Assembly: GCF_003367375.1 (NCBI RefSeq)
Contig: NZ_CP031416.1
Span: 1,867,501 to 1,931,500, forward strand
From: Gallaecimonas mangrovi
GTDB taxonomy: Bacteria; Pseudomonadota; Gammaproteobacteria; Enterobacterales; Gallaecimonadaceae
Direction of reading: 5' to 3'
Length of the DNA stretch: 64,000 bases
The position numbers and the translations under genes are program-made. Below are positions 51,190-55,445 of this stretch, piece after piece (within the stretch, counting starts at the first letter, position 1; each line of letters begins with the position of its first letter). The notes below the pieces were generated by a model. That model had not been told where the DNA came from. It was given only the letters and a program-made list of their open reading frames with translations, and did no database searches.

Positions 51190-51948
51190 ATGAGTTTTTA
51201 CAACCATCCCCAGCACTTTAGCCGTACCAATTTGGCCCACCTAAGCACACTTGCCAGCAGTCTTGGCGAAAAGCAATTTCCAGGAACCGTGGTTGACGCC
51301 GGCGATTTGCGGTTGGGCATTGATATCAATCCCCGGCACCTGATTGTGGTTGTCCATAGCGATGAAACCAACACCCGCGACTGGGCAACCGATCTGCAGG
51401 CGCAGCGCCAGCCATGGCCGGCTAAAATGCCGCTGGGTTTTGTGCACCAAGGTTTTCTAAGGCAAGCGCAAACATTGCTGCCGTTACTGACACCCATACT
51501 CTCCAAACAGCTCAAAAGCGGCACCGCGCTGTGGCTTGCTGGCCACGGCATTGGCGGCGCTGTTGCCTCGGTGCTAGCCGCCATTTTGGCGCTGGATAAA
51601 AACATCGAACTGGCCGGGCTTTGCACCTTTGGCTGCCCAAGGGTCTTTGATAACCAACTGGCTGCAGCCCTTGAAGCCTTGCTGGGCGAGCGTTACTGGC
51701 GCGTCGTGAACGACCAGGATGTCATTACCCGCCTGCCACCAAGGTGTTTTGGCTATCGCCACGGCGGCCAGTTAAGTTACTTTGACAGTACCGGTGATTT
51801 ACATTTAACCGGCGCTGAACGTTGGTGGGGCGGATTTTGGGATCGATGCCAGTATCATGGCCAGTGGCTTTTTGCTAAAGATATGAAAGACATCAACGAA
51901 CATGCTGTTGATGAATATCAGCTACTGAGTTTAGGGAGCAAGCTGTGA
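51190..51948 (+). CDS. Class 3 lipase-like protein lacking the nucleophile serine
   Basis: Alpha/beta-hydrolase of 252 residues related to fungal-type lipase_3 proteins. LIVVVHSDETNTRDWATDLQAQ and GFVHQGFLRQAQTLLPLL match the N-terminal fold; CTFGCPRVFDN and VVNDQDVITRLPP hold the acidic residue (Asp177), and KDINEHAVDEY the C-terminal His. The elbow, normally GHSLGG, reads GHGIGG (118-123), with Gly120 in place of the catalytic Ser. It therefore should not hydrolyse esters by the usual mechanism. It overlaps the DUF2007-like gene by 4 bp, hinting at a joint role. No signal peptide. Confidence 0.75.
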   Translation: MSFYNHPQHFSRTNLAHLSTLASSLGEKQFPGTVVDAGDLRLGIDINPRHLIVVVHSDETNTRDWATDLQAQRQPWPAKMPLGFVHQGFLRQAQTLLPLLTPILSKQLKSGTALWLAGHGIGGAVASVLAAILALDKNIELAGLCTFGCPRVFDNQLAAALEALLGERYWRVVNDQDVITRLPPRCFGYRHGGQLSYFDSTGDLHLTGAERWWGGFWDRCQYHGQWLFAKDMKDINEHAVDEYQLLSLGSKL

Positions 51949-52256
51949 CGGAAACGCTGCTTTATACCGCTGCCAATACCATTGAGGCCCACCTGCTAAA
52001 AGGATTACTGGCCGGGGAAGGGATCAAGGTGCGTATTGATAACGACTTTTTGATGGGCGCGGTTGGCGACCTGCCCACGGATGTGCAACAGATCCGGCTG
52101 TGGTGTTATCACCATCACCTCTCTGAAGCCAAAGCGGTGTTAGACGGCTATTTTAATCACAGTGGCCATGACTGGTATTGCGGGCAATGCGGTGAACATA
52201 ACGGCAGTGCCTTTGAAGTTTGCTGGCACTGCCAGGCGCCTCGAAAGCAGGGATAA
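51945..52256 (+). CDS. DUF2007-like protein with C-terminal zinc ribbon
   Basis: 103 residues. The N-terminal part (LLYTAANTIEAHLLKGLLAGEGIKVRIDNDFLMGAVGDLPTD) is a DUF2007-type small signal-transduction-like domain, and the C-terminal part carries a zinc-ribbon or RanBP2-like pair WYCGQCG and VCWHCQ. The start is GTG at 51945 with GGGAG upstream, overlapping the lipase-like stop by 4 bp (GTGA). Function unknown; the zinc ribbon suggests binding to protein or RNA. Confidence 0.78.
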   Translation: MTETLLYTAANTIEAHLLKGLLAGEGIKVRIDNDFLMGAVGDLPTDVQQIRLWCYHHHLSEAKAVLDGYFNHSGHDWYCGQCGEHNGSAFEVCWHCQAPRKQG

Positions 52257-53136: not shown

Positions 53137-53240
53137 AAAGACTTTTTTTCAGAGGGCTATGCAGTGCAATATGGGGCTTGTTACTAAAAAAGCAAGGGCA
53201 GGATTGCCTGTGCTTTAGCCTTCCAACAACGGAGTACCGA

Positions 53241-55445
53241 ATGAAAGCCTTGCTGTCCTTGGCCTTGTTGTCGGCGTCAGCCTTCGCGCACGAAGGAATG
53301 TGGATGCCGAGCCAACTGCCGCAGATGGCCGACACCTTGAAAAAGGCCGGCCTTGAGATCCCCGCTACCGACTTGGCCGACCTCACCAAAGCACCGATGA
53401 ATGCGGTGGTGAGCTTAGGGGGCTGTACCGCCTCTTTTGTCTCTCCCAAAGGCCTGGTGGTAACCAACCACCATTGCGCTTTTGGCAGCTTGCAATATAA
53501 CAGCACGCCGCAGCATGACTTAACCGTGGACGGCTTTCTCGCCGACACCATGACACAGGAAAAACCGGCCGCCCCGGGCACCCGGATCTGGGTAACCGAG
53601 TCGATAACTGATGTCACCGACGCCATTGATGCGGCGATGGCGACGTTAACAGGCAAGGCCCGCTACCAAGCCGAACAAGCAAAAGAAAAAGCCTTGGTGG
53701 CGGCCTGTGAAGCCAGTGAAGGTTATCGCTGCCGGGTTTTTAGTTACTACGGCGGTGCCCAGTACCGGCTATTAAAGCAGCTGGAAATCAAGGATGTGCG
53801 TTTGGTGTATGCCCCGGCCGAAGCCATAGGGGTATTTGGCGGCGATATTGATAACTGGATGTGGCCACGGCAAACCGGCGATTTTGCCTTCCTGCGCGCC
53901 TATGTCAGCAAAGACGGCAAGAGTGCCGATTACAGTAAGGATAACGTCCCTTACCACCCGAAATCTTTTCTAACCATTGACGGCGGTGGCGTTGCGCCAG
54001 ACGACTTTGTGATGGTGGCAGGCTACCCGGGAAGAACCAATCGTTATCGCACCAGCGAAGAAGTGAAATATGCGATAAACCATTACTACCCGGCCATGCA
54101 GAAATACCTGGCGCATACCGATAAGGTGATTGCCGACAGCTGCAAAGGGGTACCTGATGCGTGCCTGCGTTATGCCGCGTACCAGAAGGGTTTACTTAAT
54201 TACGCCAAAAATTTCGAAGGACAAATTGCCGGTTTTGCTAAGAGTGATCTGGTGACTCGCAAGCAAGCGTTCGAAGCAAAGTTAGCCAGTTGGGTGCGGC
54301 AAAGCCCGCAGCGTCAAAGCCAATATGGCCAAGCGCTGGCCGACTACAACGCCCTGGTTAAAAAGGCCCAAAAGCAGCAGAGCATTGACCGTAAACGCGG
54401 TGAGGCGATGAGCAGCCAGCTATATAAAACTGCTTATCGGCTTTACAAATGGGCCAATGAACAACAAAAGCCAGATGCAGAGCGTGACGAGGGCTTTCAA
54501 AACCGTGACAAAGATGCCTTTGCTGACAGCTTAAAAGCCATGGACCGACGTTTTCATCCGGTGGTAGATAAAGCACTTTGGCTGGACGGGTTAAGCCGCT
54601 ATAAAACGCTTTCCAAAAAAGAGCGCTTTGCGGCCATTGACCAGGCACTGCCTGTTGAGAAAACCAGTGAGCTGAGTAAGACCCTCGATGGCTATTACAC
54701 CAATACTACCCTTACCGACAGCAGCGTTCGCCTAGCTTGGTTGAATAAAGCCCCTGCAGACTTTCAAAACAGCACCGATCCGTTTATTCAACTTGCTGTT
54801 GCCAGTTACGGTGCATACCAAGCCATGGAAGCGGCGCAAAAAGAAACCGAAGGCGATTTTATGGCAGTGCGCCCGCAGTTTATGCAGGCGCTTATTGCTT
54901 ACCAGCAAAGTGAGGGCAAATCCCTTTATCCTGATGCCAATTCGAGCTTGCGTATCACCTATGGCCATGTGAAGGGCTATACCCCGGAAAAAGGCACCAT
55001 CAAAGAAGATGAGGATGGTGCCAAATACCTCAAGAAAGGGGCGTCTTATTTCACGCCTTTTACTACTCTTCGGGGCATCGTGGCCAAGAGCACTGGCGAG
55101 GTGCCTTTTAATGCGCCTAAAGACGAACTCGATGCCATTGCCGACCAAGACTATGGCCCTTATTACGTGCAGGCCCTTGATTCGGTGCCGGTGAACTTCC
55201 TGTCGACGGTTGACACCACCGGTGGGAACTCCGGTTCACCCACCTTGAATGCGAAAGGGCAGTTGGTCGGGCTGCTGTTTGATGGCACCTTTGATTCCAT
55301 CAATAGCGATTGGGATTTCACCGCCAACACCCGCTCCATCCATTTGGATGTGCGTTACATGCTGTGGGTGATGGACAAACTCGATGGCGCCAATAACCTG
55401 TTAAAAGAAATGACCATCGTTAACCTACCGAGTGACGATGAGTAA
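53241..55445 (+). CDS. Secreted S46-family dipeptidyl-peptidase (DPP7/DPP11 type)
   Basis: Periplasmic serine exopeptidase releasing dipeptides from N-termini. 734 residues from the ATG at 53241 (GGAG six bases upstream); signal peptide of about 17 residues (to AFA). The catalytic triad is visible: His in LVVTNHHCAFG (77-78), Asp in GGDIDNWMWPRQTGDF and Ser in TTGGNSGSPTLNAKG. After the Ser the LLFDGT stretch has Gly where DPP11 has an Arg that confers acidic P1 specificity, so DPP7-like hydrophobic preference is more likely (inference from family knowledge). Such enzymes feed peptide uptake in amino-acid-consuming marine bacteria. Confidence 0.92.
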   Translation: MKALLSLALLSASAFAHEGMWMPSQLPQMADTLKKAGLEIPATDLADLTKAPMNAVVSLGGCTASFVSPKGLVVTNHHCAFGSLQYNSTPQHDLTVDGFLADTMTQEKPAAPGTRIWVTESITDVTDAIDAAMATLTGKARYQAEQAKEKALVAACEASEGYRCRVFSYYGGAQYRLLKQLEIKDVRLVYAPAEAIGVFGGDIDNWMWPRQTGDFAFLRAYVSKDGKSADYSKDNVPYHPKSFLTIDGGGVAPDDFVMVAGYPGRTNRYRTSEEVKYAINHYYPAMQKYLAHTDKVIADSCKGVPDACLRYAAYQKGLLNYAKNFEGQIAGFAKSDLVTRKQAFEAKLASWVRQSPQRQSQYGQALADYNALVKKAQKQQSIDRKRGEAMSSQLYKTAYRLYKWANEQQKPDAERDEGFQNRDKDAFADSLKAMDRRFHPVVDKALWLDGLSRYKTLSKKERFAAIDQALPVEKTSELSKTLDGYYTNTTLTDSSVRLAWLNKAPADFQNSTDPFIQLAVASYGAYQAMEAAQKETEGDFMAVRPQFMQALIAYQQSEGKSLYPDANSSLRITYGHVKGYTPEKGTIKEDEDGAKYLKKGASYFTPFTTLRGIVAKSTGEVPFNAPKDELDAIADQDYGPYYVQALDSVPVNFLSTVDTTGGNSGSPTLNAKGQLVGLLFDGTFDSINSDWDFTANTRSIHLDVRYMLWVMDKLDGANNLLKEMTIVNLPSDDE

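Follow-up and report, generated by a model that had tools for sequence, protein, structure and literature searches.

A class 3 lipase homologue with glycine at the nucleophile position, probably non-hydrolytic and retained across Gallaecimonas next to a DUF2007 gene

What role is left for a lipase-like protein once the serine that active class 3 lipases require has been replaced by glycine? This question is raised by a gene in a 64,000-nucleotide stretch of the Gallaecimonas mangrovi genome (hereafter "the window"; the genome is assembled as a single contig of 4,071,977 bases). The gene encodes a homologue of class 3 lipases, here termed pseudo-lipase, and is directly followed by a gene for a small DUF2007 protein. 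The product could still be an enzyme, a decaying remnant, or a protein kept for something other than catalysis, and it may or may not work with its neighbor. The features on which the argument rests are as follows.

51190-51948, + strand: class 3 lipase-fold protein (pseudo-lipase) with Ser replaced by Gly at residue 120, identified from the Lipase_3 match, the orthologues and the structural model
51352-51366, + strand: place of the lost oxyanion motif, reading VHSDE at residues 55-59 in place of the FRG[TS]E of relatives
51541-51558, + strand: altered nucleophile elbow GHGIGG (residues 118-123), with Gly120 encoded by GGC at 51547-51549
51718-51720, + strand: retained triad Asp177
51901-51903, + strand: retained triad His238

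The pseudo-lipase ORF starts with ATG, encodes 252 amino acids and belongs to Pfam family Lipase_3 (77.9 bits against a cut-off of 22, residues 61-185). No NCBIfam family matched either the pseudo-lipase or the DUF2007 protein above its cut-off, no signal peptide was apparent in the pseudo-lipase by eye, and scans for promoters and terminators returned no more matches than in shuffled sequences. An AlphaFold2 model built from an alignment of this protein and 45 relatives from genome_contigs reached a pLDDT of 83.6 and a pTM of 0.85; pLDDT fell to 54-57 in the blocks spanning residues 211-240, which contain His238, so that the geometry around this residue is unsure. A Foldseek search with the model placed fungal lipases and feruloyl esterase A at the top, with a best E of 2.1e-12. 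When superposed with VIA-align, the model matched the A. oryzae mono/diacylglycerol lipase 5xk2_A with a Z of 24.5 and an rmsd of 2.6 over 219 residues, and Z values ranged from 21.7 to 24.5 for fungal lipases and esterases and from 16.8 to 19.4 for the plant proteins EDS1, PAD4 and SAG101. The predicted model thus has the alpha/beta-hydrolase fold of class 3 lipases. A weak match (E 0.00037) was also obtained to a class 3 lipase-like chain, PDB 6yxx_ES, listed as mt-LAF18.

We then considered how widely the glycine is shared. Orthologues, 53-76% identical to the protein of the window, were found in all five genomes of the genus examined, i.e., five species, and each of them carries Gly at residue 120. 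The five elbows read GHGIGG (in the window, AGHGIGGAV in context), GHGLGG, GHGLGG, GHGVGG and GHGLGG, in place of the GHSxG of relatives, and the glycine codon is GGC in four orthologues and GGT in one. Among 178 other class 3 lipase ORFs, 175 have Ser at this position, and the remaining three (L122 and pieces of L193 and L221) are gapped there. Gly in every orthologue and Ser in nearly every other ORF indicate that Gly120 is not a product of chance, and its presence in five genomes rules out a strain mutation or a sequencing error.

The 178 control ORFs were drawn from 59 genomes of relatives, 394 of the order, 369 of the class and 398 of the phylum, with 80 additional genome_contigs loci; these genome draws overlap partly, only loci that were returned were examined, up to 30 per genome search, and removal of identical ORFs left 183 ORFs, i.e., the 5 orthologues and the 178 others. 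Among the 175 Ser-bearing ORFs, 97 came from profile or protein searches that imposed no pattern at the site, and the other 78 solely from a pattern-based scan of genome_contigs. The latter is a biased sample, as the pattern allowed just Ser or Gly at the site followed by just Leu and as it covers just the best 80 of 430 relatives; it yielded 80 Ser rows and two gapped pieces. An earlier scan of genome_contigs with genus-specific patterns returned 118 stretches and no relatives, although records very near the window were possibly excluded from it. Phages gave no match, plasmids gave five records, each below 60% identity, and none of 41 matching stretches in viral_contigs was a relative. In a tree built from 65 rows, of which 63 were different, the five Gly proteins formed one side of a single branch with support 100/99, on a long stem (0.79 changes per column) and as one change of state; the placement of the nearest rows outside this group was weak.

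The control set includes four Ser-bearing paralogues from the genus itself (L019, L022, L024 and L027). Since such paralogues are kept, the catalytic role of the fold is not lost from the cell. One of them, L024 (G000:C1:3360740-3361177), lies in the window's own genome and has a normal GHSLGG elbow.

The serine is not the only catalytic element missing. Relatives carry an FRG[TS]E motif after strand 3; in fungal lipases, its Gly-Ser/Thr forms part of the oxyanion hole. This motif is replaced in all five orthologues (VHSDE, VQCLE, VHHPE, VHHPE and VHHDE), leaving SD, CL, HP, HP and HD at the G-T positions that an active lipase requires. By pattern count, RG[ST] was present in the expected upstream stretch of 167 of the 175 Ser-bearing ORFs; seven of the eight exceptions have C, A or K for R, and the eighth is a fragment. 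The looser xG[ST] was found in 174 of 175, but this form often arises by chance while the strict one seldom does. The single stray G[ST] match in the window protein (FPGTV) lies near the N-terminus, outside the aligned place, and was not counted as the motif.

The rest of the triad is in place. Asp177, which sits in VVNDQDVITRLPP, aligned with Asp in 183 of 183 rows, and His238, within NEHAVDEY, with His in 71 of 71 rows (neither set of rows was de-duplicated); both residues are present in all five orthologues. For 110 of the 178 distinct other ORFs, the alignment has a gap at His238. Just before this His, 67 of 71 rows have Asp, but the five orthologues have Glu. His223 (YHGQW) was rejected as the triad histidine because the family's DHxxxxY aligns with His238. 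As compared to active class 3 lipases (PF01764; e.g., Rhizomucor miehei lipase, Aspergillus niger feruloyl esterase and 5xk2), the pseudo-lipase shares the fold, the GHxxGG elbow, the triad Asp and His, and R171, N174 and P183, but differs in having Gly for Ser and in the loss of FRG[TS]E. The sequence-only reading had described a GHGIGG elbow in place of GHSLGG with the acidic residue and the C-terminal histidine kept, and had asked whether the glycine persists in homologues: the elbow was read and placed correctly, both residues were borne out, and no close orthologue carried Ser.

The retention of Asp177 and His238 is a counterpoint to complete inactivity, as neither residue is needed in a fully dead enzyme. 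However, 111 columns are invariant across the five orthologues, which makes this retention weak evidence of anything; it could be due to chance or to structural constraint, and is not proof of residual function. Residues C186, C220, H205 and H223 are likewise invariant in the five pseudo-lipases (within 51190-51945 of the window).

One reading of the retained residues is that the protein remains catalytic through unorthodox chemistry, using a water activated by His and Asp or another nucleophile, e.g., C220 or C186, and the invariance of Asp177, His238, His119, His191, C186 and C220 in all five orthologues is compatible with it. We consider this unlikely: the five proteins are unlike one another at the oxyanion G-T positions, a pattern that gives no hint of selection for catalysis, and an alpha/beta-hydrolase with the same substitution is inactive. 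The latter, DPP10 (DPPY, an inactive S9B peptidase), has an otherwise unaltered elbow reading GKGYGG and keeps the triad His and Asp hydrogen-bonded to each other, and restoring its Ser did not bring back activity, according to the source (PMC4350108). The same source describes DPP10 as a modulator of Kv4 channels. DPP10 belongs to another family, is human and carries a beta-propeller, and by analogy only may be taken as the closest precedent that we found for the Ser-to-Gly chemistry. Judged from its sequence, the pseudo-lipase is very probably non-hydrolytic, and the earlier proposal of a pseudo-hydrolase is strengthened at that level, with Gly fixed in the five genus genomes and the oxyanion motif lost as well.

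A protein without catalysis might simply be on its way out. All five orthologue frames are open, and pairwise dN/dS ratios (NG86) were 0.09-0.58 for nine of ten pairs, the tenth having an undefined dS; most dS values were near or above 1, so these figures are rough. Open frames and dN/dS < 1 in all nine computable pairs rule out a pseudogene, albeit with constraint measured on a shallow sample of five species from one genus. The ratios overlap those of both neighboring genes, arfB (0.07-0.69) and ybbN (0.07-0.67). A decay, in which the gene is heading for loss and the glycine was a neutral hit, would be in line with the two catalytic lesions, with the restriction of the orthologues to one genus, and with DUF2007 proteins elsewhere managing without a pseudo-lipase. 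Yet the gene has stayed open in all five species at the divergence given above, its dN/dS values overlap those of its neighbors, and the same glycine is encoded throughout by two synonymous codons. We regard this scenario as highly improbable and already largely refuted. The explanation that we favor, and consider likely, is that the gene encodes a probably cytoplasmic, non-hydrolytic protein of class 3 lipase fold, kept by selection in one genus.

The gene that follows offers a possible lead as to what the fold is kept for.

51945-52256, + strand: DUF2007 domain with a putative C-terminal zinc-ribbon stretch (RanBP2/DZR-like), 103 amino acids, GTG start

This protein belongs to the DUF2007 family (PF09413; 42.6 bits, cut-off 25.7). 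Its C-terminus contains four Cys (CGQC...CWHC), where the DUF7577, RanBP and DZR models score below their cut-offs, and its relatives in the PDB are weak zinc-finger matches (best E 0.0062). In the window, the stop codon of the pseudo-lipase and the GTG start of the DUF2007 gene share 4 nt (GTGA), in agreement with the overlap that the sequence-only reading had pointed out. Four of the five genomes have a 4-nt overlap, which reads GTGA in three of them and TTGA, with an inferred start codon, in the other; the fifth has an 8-nt gap. Because of this overlap, the two products would probably be made together, and the DUF2007 protein would be the first candidate partner of the pseudo-lipase.

The DUF2007 gene lies directly after the pseudo-lipase gene (LIP) in all five genus genomes. 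However, the whole block, apbC-udk-dcd-arfB-LIP-DUF2007-ybbN, keeps the same order in all five, so that adjacency alone says little (udk, dcd, arfB and ybbN were named from Pfam matches; the first gene we take to be apbC). Two further observations concern this region. In G002 (L005, ~946-1032, reverse-complement), the sequence immediately upstream of arfB includes a short segment similar to the arfB N-terminus, MLVISNAVTIPDDVLKLAAMRAAGGQG, which could reflect a partial duplication or a mis-assembly. The large ORF that follows ybbN (window 53178-55445), presumably an S46-type peptidase, has a match at that place in three of the four other genus genomes; in G004, the 19.5 kb examined contained none.

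Outside the genus, the two genes were not seen together. DUF2007 proteins are widespread in the order: of 59 genomes searched, 30 encode one, including all 5 from the genus and 25 among the remaining 54. Unlike in the genus, no lipase relative was detected at E 1e-6 in any of 20 non-genus DUF2007 regions (of the 25) of ~12 kb each. Conversely, no DUF2007 relative was detected in seven regions around close non-genus lipases at E 1e-6, nor, at E 1e-3, in the flanks of the best 80 of 430 lipase loci, which extended up to 3 kb a side and were in some cases shortened by contig ends. Across the 16 of 20 regions whose gene order was compared, the neighbors of non-genus DUF2007 genes vary, although some sets of related genomes share them. 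The DUF2007 gene therefore occurs independently of the lipase elsewhere, and any link to the pseudo-lipase would appear to have arisen locally.

These patterns bear on the possibility that the two proteins are unrelated and mere neighbors in a stable block, a reading that competes with a partnership and not with the pseudo-lipase being non-hydrolytic. We lean slightly towards it, given the common gene order in five of five genomes and the lipase-free, variable surroundings of DUF2007 elsewhere. The overlap found in four genomes and the short gap in the fifth weigh against it, as this arrangement is typical of translational coupling. A functional partnership between the pseudo-lipase and the DUF2007 protein is accordingly a tentative proposal, somewhat less probable than mere adjacency. 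Of the two-protein module first suggested for this locus, the adjacency and the overlap held within the genus, while an association of the two genes beyond it did not appear in the regions examined.

With or without a partner, the sequence suggests that the role of the pseudo-lipase is probably binding rather than fat breakdown. The protein has lost its nucleophile together with the side-chain oxyanion motif, while Asp177, His238 and the remaining elbow residues are kept; in the mechanism that we propose, the former substrate pocket or lid surface would bind an acyl or lipid-like ligand, or a protein, without cleavage. Whether a ligand is held in the pocket or the protein serves as a scaffold for other proteins alone is, in our estimate, close to an even choice.

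To our knowledge, non-enzymatic alpha/beta-hydrolases are known mostly from eukaryotes, DPP10 among them. Plant EDS1, PAD4 and SAG101, which act in immune signaling, have a fold like that of the model: the lipase-like fold of this family serves partner binding and signaling, although a Ser-Asp-His triad is conserved in EDS1 and PAD4, according to the source (PMC9528080). The pseudo-lipase differs from EDS1 and PAD4 in having no such Ser, and from all three in the absence of their additional EP domain, as it ends at residue 252 and the fold already aligns to residues 246-252. By rough analogy to the lipase-like partners of EDS1 in plants, the dead lipase fold might sense a ligand in its old active site and relay the signal via the co-translated DUF2007/zinc-ribbon protein, a two-protein sensor that we consider an unlikely, speculative extension.

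In the literature searched, which leaves most subscription journals outside, we found no description of a bacterial protein of this kind, and lipA is the lipase mentioned in a Gallaecimonas study (PMC12539734). The function of the DUF2007 domain is described as unknown in another report (PMC3673472). Taken together, a small, single-domain, genus-wide bacterial pseudo-lipase that keeps Asp and His and has a candidate partner would provide a simple system in which to examine what a lipase fold does after the loss of catalysis, and the pair could open a first way into what DUF2007 proteins do.
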